Assembly (NCBI RefSeq): GCF_000023325.1
Contig: NC_012785.1
Location: 1,860,001 to 1,924,000, forward strand
Direction: 5' to 3'
DNA: 64,000 nt
Source: Kosmotoga olearia TBF 19.5.1
GTDB taxonomy: Bacteria; Thermotogota; Thermotogae; Petrotogales; Kosmotogaceae
In this document: piece by piece, positions 44,432 to 49,433 of the stretch
Layout of the letters: every line of letters begins with the position of its first letter
Position numbering within the stretch: the stretch's first letter is position 1
Notes under the pieces: generated by a model
The model's database searches: none
What the model was told of the DNA's origin: nothing
What the model saw: the letters and a program-made list of their open reading frames with translations, nothing else
Program-made: the position numbers and the translations under genes

Positions 44432-45382
44432 ATGAAGTACCCGGTGTATTTAGAAAAGGTTGAGAACGGATATCTTGATTCGCTCATAGAAACCGTTGAA
44501 AAAGAACTGGATGCCTGCACGCTCTGTCCGAAAAACTGTCGGGTTAATAGAAATGCTGAAGTTACAGGTTACTGTAAACAGCAAAAAAACCCGAGAGTTT
44601 CCAGTGTTGTGCTTCATTTTGGAGAGGAGCCACCGCTGGTAGGAGAAGGAGGAGCCGGAGCGGTATTTTTCAGCGGTTGTTCGTTGGGATGTGTCTATTG
44701 CCAGAATTTTGGATTCAGTCAAAACAACACTGGTAAGGATTTTACTTTTGAAGAACTTGGTGAGATGTTTTTAGAGATTCAAAAGGAAGGGGCGGAAACT
44801 CTTGATCTGGTTACTCCTACGCCAAATCTGCCTGGAATACTGAAAGCTTTAAAGTACGCCGTTGAAAAAGGGTTTAAGCTTCCGATTGTTTATAATACCA
44901 GTGGTTATGAGAAGGTTGAAACGCTCAGGTTACTTGAAGGAATAGTCGATATTTACTTGACGGATATACGTTATTGTGATGATGAGATAGGGAAAATTTA
45001 TTCAAGAGTTCCGGATTATTGGAGCGTCACTAAAAGGGCTGTTAAAGAAATGTTCAGACAGGTTGGGGCTTTCAAGGAAGTTGACGGAATGAAGCGCGGA
45101 GTCATTATCAGGCATCTTGTGTTGCCAAATGGGATAGCGGGTACAGGAGAAATGGCAGAATTTGTTGCTTTCGAACTTTCGCTTTCCGTTCCAATATCCC
45201 TTATGTCCCAATACAGACCGGTATATAAAGCAAAGGAGTATCCAGAGATATCCCGTAGGATAAGTGTTGAGGAATATGAAAATGCCCTGGATATTCTTGA
45301 AGCCTATGGATTAACTGGCTGGATGCAACATTTTGAGAGCAAGGAACCTTTTAGGGCTAAACCGTTGAGGAGGAGAATATGA
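44432..45382 (+). CDS. Radical SAM protein, PflA-like (COG1313)
   Basis: The 316-residue protein has an N-terminal Cys motif CTLCPKNCRVNR (near 29) and the radical SAM motif CSLGCVYC (near 82) after FSG. This layout is that of the COG1313 group of uncharacterised pyruvate-formate-lyase-activase-like proteins. VTPTPNLPGIL and SQYRPVYKA are further family blocks. GAGGAG lies ahead of the ATG. It overlaps mrpE by 4 nt, so it is translationally coupled to the antiporter genes although no functional link is known. Confidence 0.85.
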   Translation: MKYPVYLEKVENGYLDSLIETVEKELDACTLCPKNCRVNRNAEVTGYCKQQKNPRVSSVVLHFGEEPPLVGEGGAGAVFFSGCSLGCVYCQNFGFSQNNTGKDFTFEELGEMFLEIQKEGAETLDLVTPTPNLPGILKALKYAVEKGFKLPIVYNTSGYEKVETLRLLEGIVDIYLTDIRYCDDEIGKIYSRVPDYWSVTKRAVKEMFRQVGAFKEVDGMKRGVIIRHLVLPNGIAGTGEMAEFVAFELSLSVPISLMSQYRPVYKAKEYPEISRRISVEEYENALDILEAYGLTGWMQHFESKEPFRAKPLRRRI

Positions 45383-45735
45383 TTTTTTCCCTTTCCTTTT
45401 TGATCTGGATGATGCTAGAGCCTTCGCTTAGTTCAGACAATCTATTTTTTGCCCTTCTTTCCGCAAGCATTTCCTGGCTTGTTGGTCGAAAAGTCATCCC
45501 GAAGGGAAACGGTTTCAAGGTGCTAACAAAGTTGGTTTTCAAATATCCGGTGGCGGTTTTTCAGGCTTTCAGATTGCTTTTAACCCGACAGCTTTTTTCA
45601 ATTACAGAAACAGTCTCACCGGATAACAGGATAGATGAATTCGGAAAAATTGTCTCTATAACACTAACACCTGAAGAATTGGTTGTGCACAAAGACAGGA
45701 ACAAACTTATCATCCATGGGGTGAAAGAAAAATGA
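45379..45735 (+). CDS. mrpE: Mrp/Mnh-type antiporter subunit E
   Basis: The 118-residue protein has one or two N-terminal membrane helices and the MnhE-type soluble tail with VSITLTPEELVVHKDRNKLIIHGV, where the SITLTPGT region is the family signature. Mrp complexes exchange Na+ or other cations for protons; in archaeal Mbh the equivalent subunit is MbhA. It begins with ATGA overlapping the upstream radical SAM gene and ends overlapping mrpF by 4 nt. Confidence 0.85.
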   Translation: MIFSLSFLIWMMLEPSLSSDNLFFALLSASISWLVGRKVIPKGNGFKVLTKLVFKYPVAVFQAFRLLLTRQLFSITETVSPDNRIDEFGKIVSITLTPEELVVHKDRNKLIIHGVKEK

Positions 45736-45986
45736 TAACCTATACGGCGCTTGGCGTTACAGTTTTTTCTGTTTTGATCCTTTTCCTATATTCCAGAGAC
45801 AGAAATCCCTGGAAGCTTCTCGTTGCTTATTCGTCGATAACCGTGAAAGTACTTGTGCTGCTCCTTTTTTTGGGGCTTTTGTTTGAAATCAGATATCTGT
45901 CTGAGATAATCCTTATTTTTCTTTTCTTAAATGCTGGTGGAACGATAATAGCCGCGTACTTTTTGGGAGTGAGGAACAGCAAATGA
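45732..45986 (+). CDS. mrpF: Mrp-type antiporter subunit F
   Basis: The 84-residue protein has three hydrophobic segments (about 5-20, 30-52 and 57-78), as in MrpF/MbhB. The identity is supported mainly by size, topology and position between subunits E and G. Four-nucleotide overlaps on both sides indicate coupled translation. Confidence 0.75.
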   Translation: MITYTALGVTVFSVLILFLYSRDRNPWKLLVAYSSITVKVLVLLLFLGLLFEIRYLSEIILIFLFLNAGGTIIAAYFLGVRNSK

Positions 45987-46255
45987 GAATACTTGCATTT
46001 CTCTTTTTCTTCAGTGGATGTTTCCTTGTTTTAATTGGTACTTTAAGAGCCATATTTGCTCATGGCATAGTTCAGGCATTGCATTTTCTTGGGGCTTCTG
46101 ACACGGTTGGACTTAGCTTATTAGCTCTTTCGGCTTTCTTTTTCGGGCTTATATCATTTCTTGAAATGCTGGTGTTGATAGGAATACTTGTTGTTTCCGG
46201 TCCGGTAGTTTCTCATGTTATCAGCAGGGCTTTTTTAAGTTCCCGGAGGAGATAG
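45983..46255 (+). CDS. mrpG: Mrp-type antiporter subunit G
   Basis: The 90-residue protein has three membrane segments and the MrpG-type block GIVQALHFLGASDTVGLSLLALSAF (near 28-52), where the HFLG...D/T-G pattern is conserved in MnhG/MbhC. A basic tail (SSRRR) should face the cytosol. Confidence 0.8.
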   Translation: MRILAFLFFFSGCFLVLIGTLRAIFAHGIVQALHFLGASDTVGLSLLALSAFFFGLISFLEMLVLIGILVVSGPVVSHVISRAFLSSRRR

Positions 46256-46256
46256 A

Positions 46257-46952
46257 ATGCTCTTTGCCGTACTAATTTTCTCATCGCTTTACCTTCTGGC
46301 AGCGTTGGCTATTGTTGGCGCGAAAACAAACTTCAAAGCAGTTATATGGTACGGGATTCTCGGTTTCTTTTCTTCTGTGATGATGCTTTTACTCGGAGCT
46401 CCTGATGTTGCGTTAACCCAATTTACAGTCGGTGTTACTCTTGTTATCCTTGTTTATATCATGGCAATCCGAAAACAGCGAAGGGTCAGGGTGGGTTACA
46501 TTTCCACTCCGTACATGATCTACAAGCGTAATGAAGACCTCGACGGACTGGAATGGGAAATTATCTCCAGAATACAGGGGCTTGAAGGGTATCATATAGA
46601 ACCCTTTGAGTTTGAGAATGTTCAAAAGGCACTTGAAGCTCTAAAAGCGGGAACGGTTGATATAGTTTGTGGCGGTTTGACAGATGAAAGCGTGGAAGAT
46701 GCGTGGTTTTTTGTGAAAATTCCCTATCTTAAAACCATATTCTTCAAACTTGGAGATAAGGAGGTAGATTACCTTCACCTCAAATCTCTAAGAACTACTG
46801 AGGAGAAGGTTGAGGCTGTTCCTACACGAAAAACGCATTATGTCTTTCTGCTGGCTGAGACGGCTGAAGATTTGAAGAACTTTGTGATATCTGATCTGAA
46901 GGAGCTTGAAGCAACAGGGGAGCTCAAAAGGATAGTGGAGAGGTATCTATGA
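46257..46952 (+). CDS. MbhD/DUF4040-type antiporter subunit fused to a solute-binding-protein-like domain
   Basis: Residues 1-72 form three membrane helices with the motif GAPDVALTQFTVGVTL (about 47-62), the DUF4040 signature of MrpA C-termini and MbhD. From about 76 to 231 the sequence resembles amino-acid-type periplasmic binding proteins: RVRVGYISTPYMIYK, then ALEALKAGTVDIVCGGLT, then PYL, and a closing helix VISDLKELEATGELKRIVERY. The stretch that would form lobe II is only about 45 residues, so one lobe seems missing. The IRKQRR after helix 3 suggests a cytosolic location. Such a fusion is not standard in Mrp systems. Confidence 0.75.
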   Translation: MLFAVLIFSSLYLLAALAIVGAKTNFKAVIWYGILGFFSSVMMLLLGAPDVALTQFTVGVTLVILVYIMAIRKQRRVRVGYISTPYMIYKRNEDLDGLEWEIISRIQGLEGYHIEPFEFENVQKALEALKAGTVDIVCGGLTDESVEDAWFFVKIPYLKTIFFKLGDKEVDYLHLKSLRTTEEKVEAVPTRKTHYVFLLAETAEDLKNFVISDLKELEATGELKRIVERYL

Positions 46953-47644
46953 ATCTGAAAAAAATTGCTGCGGTCATTCTTGTGGTTTATATTTTTACTC
47001 TGTTTATTTTTCAGATTGATTTTTCAGCCACAAAGGCTGCTGAAGCGGTTGAAGGGAAAATAGAAACCCTCGTGGAGAAAGTAAGAATCCCAAATACGGT
47101 TACCTCTGTTTATCTTCAATCGAGGGTTTACGATACCCTTTTTGAAGTGCTTGTTTTTTCGGTTGCTGTTGTTGGTGTTACGAGTATGCTGAAATCTGAA
47201 CCCAAGAGCGAAATATCCGAACAAACGGTTTTTGGAACGGCCGAGGTATATAGCTCAGGTATTGTTGCCATTTCCATCACAGTCTTCCTTTATGTGGTTC
47301 TTAATGGGCATCTGTCGCCTGGAGGAGGTTTCGCAGGTGGAGTAATACTCGCCAGCAGCATAGTGCTTTATGGAGTTTCCTCGAACTTTATAAGGGCGTT
47401 ATCTCACTATGAGAATATGCGTGTGAAGATCATAGAAAACCTTGCGTTGATAATCACCCTTTCTATTATGACAATGTGCGTCACTTTCCCCGATTTTATC
47501 CTTGCTATAAATGAGAAACAGAGCTATGGTGGCATTCTCAGCGGAGGGGTAATTCCGCTGGTAAATCTTTTGGTTGGGATCAAAGTCTATGCGGGTTCCT
47601 GGAAAATGACGAGTGAATTTGTCGTGAGAAGGGGGACATTATGA
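46949..47644 (+). CDS. mrpB: MbhE/MrpB fused antiporter subunit
   Basis: The 231-residue protein combines an N-terminal part resembling MbhE or the MrpA tail (one helix, a soluble linker, then VYLQSRVYDTLFEVLVFSVAVVG near 55-78) with an MrpB domain marked by VVLNGHLSPGGGFAGGVI near 117. The latter motif is the most conserved in the family. Four-nucleotide overlaps join it to both neighbours. Confidence 0.85.
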   Translation: MNLKKIAAVILVVYIFTLFIFQIDFSATKAAEAVEGKIETLVEKVRIPNTVTSVYLQSRVYDTLFEVLVFSVAVVGVTSMLKSEPKSEISEQTVFGTAEVYSSGIVAISITVFLYVVLNGHLSPGGGFAGGVILASSIVLYGVSSNFIRALSHYENMRVKIIENLALIITLSIMTMCVTFPDFILAINEKQSYGGILSGGVIPLVNLLVGIKVYAGSWKMTSEFVVRRGTL

Positions 47645-48003
47645 TAAGTGAGGTAGCCATATACACCTCGTTGATCGGAGCCTTTCTGGGAACATTGGGC
47701 ATGCTTTTGACGCCCAATTTGATAAAAAAGATACTGGCTCTTGGTATCGTAGAAACCTCCGTCACGCTTTTCTATACAGCGATATCTTCGAAAAGCGGTA
47801 CCAGTGCGCCGATAATCCCCTATTTGCCTATCGAGAGGTTGCGGTATGCTGATCCTGTACCTCAGGCAGTGGTAATAACCAGCATAGTTATAGGTTTTAC
47901 AATTTTGAGTTTATTGCTCGTTTTCACCATAATGCTTCACAACAGGTATCATACCGTTGATGTAAATCTGATAGAAAAGATTCTCGAAGGAGAGGAGAAA
48001 TGA
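47641..48003 (+). CDS. mrpC: Mrp-type antiporter subunit C (NuoK-like)
   Basis: The 120-residue protein has three membrane helices with a central Glu in ILALGIVETSVTLF (near 38) and the DPVPQAVVITSIVIGF segment (near 71), the MrpC/NuoK hallmark, part of the proposed ion path. Overlaps of 4 nt flank it. Confidence 0.9.
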   Translation: MISEVAIYTSLIGAFLGTLGMLLTPNLIKKILALGIVETSVTLFYTAISSKSGTSAPIIPYLPIERLRYADPVPQAVVITSIVIGFTILSLLLVFTIMLHNRYHTVDVNLIEKILEGEEK

Positions 48004-49433
48004 TACTTTACATAAGCCTTATTCCGCTTTTTCTCGGTGGCCTATCGCTTATACTTAATCGTTATAGAAAAATAACCATAACCTTGACGTTCGTATCCTT
48101 GATATCTTCAGCATTAATACTGATCCTCAATATCGGTAACAGTTACGAGACAGTGATAGGAAATTGGGGAACGTTAGGTATATCCATAGGATACGATGAA
48201 ATAGCTTTGCCTTTCCTTCTTGCTGTAGTGGTAGTTCTTTTTGCTGTAACTTTGAATTCCCTTCACAAGGATTATGATGGAATTTTTTATGCTCTCATAA
48301 CCTTGCTTTTGGGCTCATTGAACGCGGTTTTTATAACGCGGGATCTTTTCAATGTATATGTTACCTTTGAACTTGCGTCGATAATAAGTTTCATATTGAT
48401 AGCTTATGGTAGGAAAGGAAAACAGATCTGGGCTTCGTTGAAATATATGTTAATATCAGCCCTTGGCTTTAATTTCTACCTCATCGGAATAGGGCTCGTT
48501 TACATGCGAAACGGGACCTTCTCTTTTTCCGCTATGGATAACATGGATAAACTACCCGCTATGCTTATATTTGTGGGCCTTTCCGTAAAATCGGGTTTGT
48601 TCTTGCTTTCAATGTGGCTTCCGGATGCGCATGCCAACGCCATAACTGAGATTTCTCCCATACTTTCCGGATTAATGGTCAAAATAGAGGATTACCTTGT
48701 AATACGTTTTCTCCAATACAGTTCCTTTGAATGGCTCAGGGGAGTTTACCTCATAGTGGGATCCGCCAGTGCCGTTGCTGGTGTGATCTTTGCGATGAAT
48801 GCCAGGAAGGCGAAGAATATTCTGGCTTACCATACATTTTCGCAGATCGGTTTCATAATTGCAGCGAGCAACATCGCCGCGGCATGGCATGCTTTCAGTC
48901 ACGCTGTTTTTAAGGGACTTCTTTTCATGACAGCAGGAAACATCTATGAGAGGCTTGGTACACAGAATATAAAAGAATGGAACGGGAAGGTACGCCTGAG
49001 GGAATATATCCCCCTTCTCGTGGGATCAGCGGCAATCGCTGGTGCACCCTTAACATCCGGTTTCGTCACCAAGAACGGCATAATGGATTCCATCGTGGGG
49101 CCGGCAAAATATCTCCTGGTGATAGCTTCTGTTGGAACGGTAATCAGCTTCGCTAAATTTGTCTTTATACGCACATCAAAAGAAAGAACTCAACTGCCAT
49201 GGAATGTTATGCTCGCTTATGCCATCATGATTTTCACGATATTTGCTCATGGGATAATAGAATTTGACTCACATTATGTTTTAGATGCCTTAGTGATGAT
49301 CGCAGCTGGAATTCCGTTGTATTTCATGGTAAGAAAATCCTTCAGACCTTTACCCAAAACCTTCGAAAGGCTTGACAATGCTTTACTGATTTATCTCATA
49401 TTCTTCGCGATAATGCTGACGTTTATTATTTGA
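48000..49433 (+). CDS. mrpD: Mrp-type antiporter subunit D (NuoL/M/N-like)
   Basis: The 477-residue protein has about 14 membrane helices of the proton-antiporter family, with FNVYVTFELASIISFILIAY (near 117), the SVKSGLFLLSMWLPDAHANA block (near 197), and the HTFSQIGFI lysine/histidine channel helix (near 277). It is the only large antiporter-type subunit of this cluster. The first half of a full-length MrpA is absent. It is the last gene before repeat island B. Confidence 0.93.
   Translation: MILYISLIPLFLGGLSLILNRYRKITITLTFVSLISSALILILNIGNSYETVIGNWGTLGISIGYDEIALPFLLAVVVVLFAVTLNSLHKDYDGIFYALITLLLGSLNAVFITRDLFNVYVTFELASIISFILIAYGRKGKQIWASLKYMLISALGFNFYLIGIGLVYMRNGTFSFSAMDNMDKLPAMLIFVGLSVKSGLFLLSMWLPDAHANAITEISPILSGLMVKIEDYLVIRFLQYSSFEWLRGVYLIVGSASAVAGVIFAMNARKAKNILAYHTFSQIGFIIAASNIAAAWHAFSHAVFKGLLFMTAGNIYERLGTQNIKEWNGKVRLREYIPLLVGSAAIAGAPLTSGFVTKNGIMDSIVGPAKYLLVIASVGTVISFAKFVFIRTSKERTQLPWNVMLAYAIMIFTIFAHGIIEFDSHYVLDALVMIAAGIPLYFMVRKSFRPLPKTFERLDNALLIYLIFFAIMLTFII

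Follow-up and report, generated by a model that had tools for sequence, protein, structure and literature searches.

Mrp complexes of group 3 (e.g. the mrpEFGBB'CD cluster of P. furiosus) lack MrpA, and the drive or control of those that stand alone has been stated to be unknown (PMC8415708). In Mrp complexes an Asp of MrpF (D35 in A. flavithermus) is called invariably conserved by Steiner and Sazanov, and its replacement in the D35L mutant inactivates the complex (PMC7419157). The same residue (D38) lies on the proposed sodium path of the B. pseudofirmus Mrp, and a cytosolic tunnel starts from Glu687 in TMH19 of MrpA (PMC9568556). The third transmembrane helix (TM3) of MbhD has its counterparts in MrpA TMH19 and ND6 TMH3, for which a rotation has been proposed in complex I and a possible role as a gate discussed for Mrp (PMC9568556).

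In the present work, we have analyzed a stretch of 64,000 nucleotides from Kosmotoga olearia TBF 19.5.1 (contig NC_012785.1, positions 1,860,001 to 1,924,000; hereafter the window), which contains an mrp cluster at 45379-49433 with the gene order E-F-G-[MbhD+SBP]-[MbhE+F]-C-D, where SBP stands for a solute-binding-protein domain. MrpD is present and MrpA is absent from this cluster, so that it belongs to Mrp group 3, and no redox or hydrogenase module is found in the operon, so that it stands alone; judged by gene content, it encodes an Mrp cation/proton antiporter of the stand-alone group 3 type. The neighbors of the cluster that were tested encode an EPSP-synthase-family (MurA-like) protein, a radical SAM protein, DegV and PhoH, and there is no ABC transporter gene within the cluster. 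The features of the cluster and of its fusion protein are summarized in Table 1.

Table 1. The mrp cluster of the window and the parts of its MbhD-SBP fusion protein (positions in the window)
Feature	Position	Strand	Evidence
MrpE	45379..45735	+	PF01899 MNHE, E 6.8e-4, 19.9 bits, under the 27-bit cut-off; cluster position
MrpF, altered type (W27, S34 at the place of the canonical Asp, K39; codons 45810-45848)	45732..45986	+	PF04066, E 0.0063, below cut-off; NCBIfam PRK08381, E 7.3e-5; alignment
MrpG	45983..46255	+	PF03334, E 3.9e-9
Fusion: MbhD/DUF4040 membrane part, TM1-TM3 (residues 1-73; TM3 = 51-73)	46257..46475	+	PF13244, AlphaFold helices, phmmer
Fusion: basic junction Q74-R75-R76	46476..46484	+	SBP strand 1 begins inside; K+R enriched here in 48 relatives
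Fusion: N-terminal part of SBP_bac_3 lobe I (residues 77-165), up to and including the first hinge strand	46485..46751	+	PF00497, AlphaFold, Foldseek
Fusion: short cap replacing lobe II (residues 166-184; D171, 85% conserved)	46752..46808	+	Profile alignments, conservation, model
Fusion: return of the chain into SBP_bac_3 lobe I (residues 185-231; second hinge strand, two helices at the C-terminus)	46809..46949	+	Model; phmmer/hmmsearch to GshT 4eq9, GlnPQ 6h30
MbhE+MbhF (MrpB-type) fused subunit	46949..47644	+	PF04039 MnhB, E 8e-19; NCBIfam PRK12567
MrpC	47641..48003	+	PF00420, E 8.7e-17
MrpD, sole antiporter-like subunit of the cluster	48000..49433	+	PF00361, E 8e-43; residues by alignment

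The fusion is encoded by a single open reading frame at 46257-46952 on the plus strand, which starts with ATG and specifies 231 amino acids (aa). Residues 11-76 match PF13244 (MbhD) with E 6.3e-19 (68 bits against a Pfam cut-off of 27), and residues 78-231 match PF00497 (SBP_bac_3) with E 3.2e-10 (40 bits, the cut-off being 26, precisely 26.4); the isolated tail gives E 9.9e-11, and the scores against PF00497 are 40-42 bits. The MbhD part has three transmembrane helices and the APD-V/L motif and was matched by phmmer to 6u8y_D (a DUF4040 protein), to MrpA (7qru/6z16) and to MBH (6cfw). The AlphaFold model, built from an alignment of 13 natural sequences (pLDDT 85, pTM 0.68), places these helices at residues 2-21, 25-45 and 51-73 and opens the SBP domain with a strand (75-82) that begins two residues past the end of TM3. 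Only 1-3 residues join the two parts, and, as this strand starts within the basic junction, there is no flexible linker between them. In the model, the alpha/beta fold of lobe I is complete and includes two long hinge strands (153-165 and 185-199); the place of lobe II between them is taken by a strand (168-171) and a helix (172-177), both short. A Foldseek search with this model yielded 341 PDB matches at E<=0.001, and the best 50 of the 341 are all SBPs or SBP-like domains. Hence, it is almost certain that the protein consists of an MbhD-type subunit of a group 3 Mrp with an SBP_bac_3-derived tail. The first-pass annotation had proposed such a fusion to a single-lobed binding-protein domain from the sequence alone; both Pfam cut-offs are passed, the structure prediction returns the SBP-type lobe I rather than an unrelated fold, and the further claim that a binding-protein fold on this subunit is foreign to known Mrp and Mbh complexes was borne out for the solved Mrp and MBH structures.

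When a profile made from the tails of 22 relatives is aligned with two-lobed binding proteins of the PDB (best match GlnPQ 6h30, E 6.6e-20), the alignments leave out about 60 lobe II residues between the hinge strands. By these profile alignments and the model, the fusion lacks the arrangement of two lobes on either side of a ligand cleft; lobe II is missing or has about 19 residues in its place. Counted from the residue after TM3, the tails measure 139-162 aa in most Thermotogota and 166-187 aa in others, and those of Bipolaricaulota measure 186-199 aa. Positions 2-198 of a Bipolaricaulota profile align with residues 4-221 of GlnBP, nearly its whole length, so that these tails probably keep most of lobe II. 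Five Bipolaricaulota loci (L078, L085, L094, L101 and L102) have tails of 196-199 aa that align with nearly all of GlnBP and probably come near the almost two-lobed ancestor from which the one-lobed form arose. The simplest history would thus be that a whole binding-protein domain was fused to MbhD and that lobe II was lost afterwards. The description of the domain as a single lobe holds for the protein of the window, although the one-lobed form is probably derived. Residues conserved in the tails include G97, E99, D135, G139, T160, D171 and Y195; at the position after the AG-T motif where amino-acid SBPs have the Arg that binds the ligand alpha-carboxylate, the tail alignments contain no conserved Arg.

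Our searches have identified this fusion well beyond the genome of K. olearia. In Thermotogota, 53 of the 61 genomes were matched by a whole-protein search, the close relatives having full-length open fusions, and all 22 diverse Thermotogota tails examined match PF00497; the occurrence of the same fusion in other mrp operons of this phylum, which the first-pass annotation had left to a search, is thereby established. In the Thermotogota operons with the fusion the gene order is either conserved or permuted to C-D-E-F-G-[fusion]-B. A scan of a collection of species genomes found the fusion also in Bipolaricaulota and in one record labelled Caldisericota. Of 60 Bipolaricaulota genomes sampled, about half give a match that spans essentially the whole model, and many have a second match without a tail. 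The presence of the same open frame in many genomes rules out an assembly artefact or frameshift as the source of the fusion, and the occurrences in Thermotogota and Bipolaricaulota rule out its restriction to K. olearia. The record labelled Caldisericota is a metagenome-assembled contig (L101, JAADIW010000130.1) whose protein is close to that of a Bipolaricaulota metagenome-assembled genome (L094, JAGGWU010000057.1), and it is possibly mislabelled or mis-binned.

Many cyanobacteria and one Desulfoferrobacter genome were found in the same scan to carry a tail that is related to this one but shorter. The cyanobacterial protein, whose profile was matched in 28 of 79 sampled cyanobacterial genomes, corresponds to the NCBIfam family PRK07377, annotated as "hypothetical protein", and has a tail of about 90-150 aa. 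Residues 5-164 of the window fusion match model PRK07377.1-4 with E 4.5e-16 (59.3 bits, below the curated cut-off of 151), and a profile comparison of the cyanobacterial and Thermotogota tails gives 84% (E 7.5e-6). PF00497 was not matched by the cyanobacterial tails in the members tested, the AlphaFold model of such a tail is of moderate confidence (pLDDT 69), and its Foldseek matches are weak (best E 0.02), the list consisting mostly of PBP-II folds (e.g. LysR effector domains and MetQ). With model and fold matches of this quality, the case for homology of the cyanobacterial tail to the Thermotogota SBP tail draws mainly on the PRK07377 match and the profile comparison; such homology is probable, though less firmly so than that within Thermotogota. 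On plasmid pMB01 of Acaryochloris (L075, 903-8187), the gene for a sodium-dependent bicarbonate permease is followed downstream by a group 3 Mrp cluster, and this neighbor suggests a link of the cluster to carbon uptake; the MrpF of the cluster is annotated only as hypothetical. The Desulfoferrobacter locus (L077) comprises two adjacent Mrp-type gene sets, one with a canonical MrpF (DRVVALD), the MrpF nearest to the tailed MbhD being of the W..K type. A further group of MbhD proteins, from Spirochaetes and Firmicutes (L107, L109, L110, L111, L114, L122, L123, L126 and L136), carries a soluble tail of about 110 aa together with the same MrpF signature. A relation of these tails to the SBP tail is not established (profile comparison 15% probability, E 0.0017), and in a 119-genome sample of the phylum the starting genome alone gave a full-length match to the protein with the tail of about 110 aa.

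The MrpF of the window has Ser34 at the place of the canonical Asp (D35/D38) and matches the canonical MrpF models weakly; its position in the cluster also supports its identity. The altered MrpF is a common property of the clusters with a soluble MbhD tail, as called by length and hydrophobicity (84 clusters, comprising the window and the tailed loci among L035-L111, L114, L122, L123, L126 and L136): the MrpF Asp is found in 0/84, a Lys or Arg five residues later in 83/84 and a Trp in the preceding loop motif in 78/84, counts which were made after the pattern had been noticed in the same loci and which are not independent events, since the MrpD tree shows mostly one ancient subtype. Redox genes, sought within the fetched flanks (about 6 kb for most loci), are absent near all 84 of these clusters. 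All 42 redox-linked clusters, on the other hand, have a tail-less MbhD and the MrpF Asp, and none of the 42 has the Lys/Arg. After removal of MrpF sequences more than 80% identical, the comparison of tailed with redox-linked clusters stands at 59/60 vs 0/25 for Lys/Arg and at 0/60 vs 25/25 for Asp. Both kinds of cluster, one of each, occur together in 12 genomes, among them that of the window, and the pattern applies in all 12. The second Mrp-type module of the window's own genome (L156, G000:C1:2181000-2199000) is Mbx-like and has a tail-less MbhD of 80 aa in an operon with NuoL-, NuoH-, NuoB-, NuoC- and NuoD-like genes (names assigned from translations); a Nuo-like block of this type recurs in three other genomes, and other Thermotogota likewise have a tail-less MbhD with redox genes. 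Clusters with neither a tail nor redox genes in the fetched flank retain the Asp in 8 of 17 cases and have the Lys/Arg in one of 17. One tailed locus (L112) does not have the MrpF Lys. In another locus (L051, 5986-6957), MbhD is fused directly to MbhE+F (323 aa) with no soluble domain and the MrpF is still of the W..K type; this may be either a natural tail-less member or a case of tail loss.

In the MrpD tree, all 47 non-redundant tailed clusters and 3 others lie on one side of a split with a support of 0.83. The association of tail and MrpF, coming largely from one ancient subtype, is thus no proof of a functional link between them. On the sequences compared, tail, absence of redox genes and changed MrpF together mark mostly one ancient subtype, and the tail-bearing Mrp exchangers look like a distinct, unstudied one. 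Improved salt tolerance has been reported as an effect of cyanobacterial Mrp clusters (PMC7264159), and the Mrp cluster of Aphanothece acts, according to work cited in PMC5703873, as a Na+/H+ antiporter; every cyanobacterial MrpF from the loci that were fetched belongs to the altered type. As cyanobacterial Mrp is reported to be active, an altered MrpF need not mean that sodium exchange is lost, the MrpF of the strains named in those reports lying outside the fetched loci.

Other residues of the ion path are also changed in the window. By alignment, the position of the cation-loading Glu in TMH19 of MrpA (E706/E687) is occupied by Gly59 in the fusion, which thus does not have the canonical Glu, and position 55 is Gln (Q55) vs Glu in most MbhD relatives. 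Since Q55 replaces the TM3 Glu, the acidic residue of MbhD and that of MrpF are both missing from the window cluster. The same Gln for the TM3 Glu is shared by the relatives L070-L074, L063, L066 and L067. In MrpD, the proton-path residues E124, K197, K228 and K305 are intact by alignment.

The tail is probably cytosolic, as the first-pass annotation had predicted from the basic residues after the third helix. Over 48 relatives, the mean number of Lys and Arg is 1.9 in loop 1-2 and 3.1 after TM3 vs 0.06 in loop 2-3 and 0.02 at the N-terminus, positive-inside counts that are consistent with a cytosolic C-terminus. The known topology of NuoJ, the homologous subunit in complex I, likewise puts the end equivalent to that of MbhD TM3 in the cytosol, and it is from these two lines that a cytosolic position of the SBP tail is predicted.

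The reading that we favor, to which we give somewhat less than or at most an even chance, is that the SBP tail is a cytosolic cap or allosteric lever on the gating helix which acts mainly via protein contacts. A family-3 SBP domain would have been fused to the TM3 end of MbhD and would have lost most of lobe II since; the tail would dock where MbhD meets MrpF on the cytosolic side and hold or move TM3, the helix that carries or neighbors the Mrp cation-loading Glu, and the docked tail may bias the open or closed state of the cation path. A folded tail could hold or move TM3 in this manner because it is joined to it almost without a linker, and gating by the tail is plausible from the helix on which it sits. 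Structurally, the tail would then do the job that MrpA or the redox arm does in other complexes. This cap or lever is preferred to a domain that merely stabilizes the complex, or blocks association with a redox arm or MrpA, and has no role in the transport cycle. Such a passive part is unlikely: the tail and its fold are retained across phyla and the joint to TM3 is rigid, even though the strict anti-correlation of the tail with redox modules and the loss of lobe II would fit it, as would the variable tail length (139-199 aa in Thermotogota and Bipolaricaulota, about 90-150 aa in the cyanobacterial loci), which also fits weak constraint.

The cap or lever is likewise preferred to a ligand-sensing gate, in which binding of a metabolite from the cytosol (e.g. 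an amino acid or a nucleotide) to the single lobe would open or close the antiporter. A gate of this kind, possibly sensing amino acids or nucleotides, was the proposal of the first-pass annotation, and the present results do not support its sensing part. The fold of the tail is that of a ligand-binding protein, D171, E99 and Y195 are conserved in it, and an engineered isolated lobe of ArgBP from T. maritima has an affinity of about 3 uM for arginine (PMC7589609), by analogy with which ligand binding by one lobe may be possible in principle. However, the alpha-carboxylate Arg of amino-acid SBPs is unconserved, lobe II is eroded and the cyanobacterial tails are shorter still; a small-molecule ligand is possible but not indicated, and we regard sensing as rather unlikely, if somewhat less so than the passive role. 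The solved SBP relatives of the tail profile are secreted, periplasmic or extracytoplasmic proteins, which might point to a lobe outside the cell that captures solute and feeds it to the complex, as in GlnPQ. This is very improbable, as there is no export signal ahead of the domain except TM3 itself, and the positive-inside counts, the NuoJ topology and the tunnel from Glu687 of MrpA TMH19 all point to a cytosolic end of TM3. Taken further, the cap or lever could mean that tailed group 3 Mrp are a separate kind of antiporter, in which the SBP tail is an input or gating module, the MrpF Asp site is rewired with Lys/Arg and cation uptake is controlled from a cytosolic domain; we put forward this wider proposal as a speculation that is unlikely to hold in full.

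The components of the fusion and the Mrp group to which it belongs are already known, and databases show the tail as separate Pfam matches or as "hypothetical protein"; no description of a fusion of a DUF4040, PRK07377 or Mrp subunit with an SBP domain, or of the linked MrpF change, was found in the open-access literature. These results provide a candidate control module and a testable subtype for the MrpA-less Mrp, a conserved tail of binding-protein origin that is linked with the loss of an "invariant" Asp whose replacement inactivates the A. flavithermus complex, and a likely identity for the tail of the cyanobacterial family PRK07377. In its gene set, E-F-G-(MbhD)-(MbhE/F)-C-D with no MrpA and no redox module, the window cluster resembles mrpEFGBB'CD of P. 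furiosus; however, the published description of the latter makes its MrpB a fusion of MbhD and MbhE, mentions no soluble domain and reports the ion-path residues as conserved (PMC8415708), whereas those of MrpF and MbhD are changed in the window. With the MbhD of MBH, MBS and Mbx (6cfw, 6u8y), the membrane part shares the three-helix DUF4040 fold and the APDVA motif, but those proteins have no C-terminal domain and reside in redox-driven complexes. The tail resembles the type II periplasmic binding proteins of the SBP_bac_3 family (viz. the GlnPQ SBDs, GlnBP and TmArgBP) in lobe I fold and sequence signatures, and differs from them in being one-lobed, without the ligand Arg, behind a transmembrane helix, probably cytosolic and with no ABC transporter gene in its cluster. 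PRK07377, the cyanobacterial group 3 DUF4040 protein, has like the window protein an MbhD with a tail at the same junction; the window tail matches PF00497, unlike the shorter cyanobacterial tails in the members tested.
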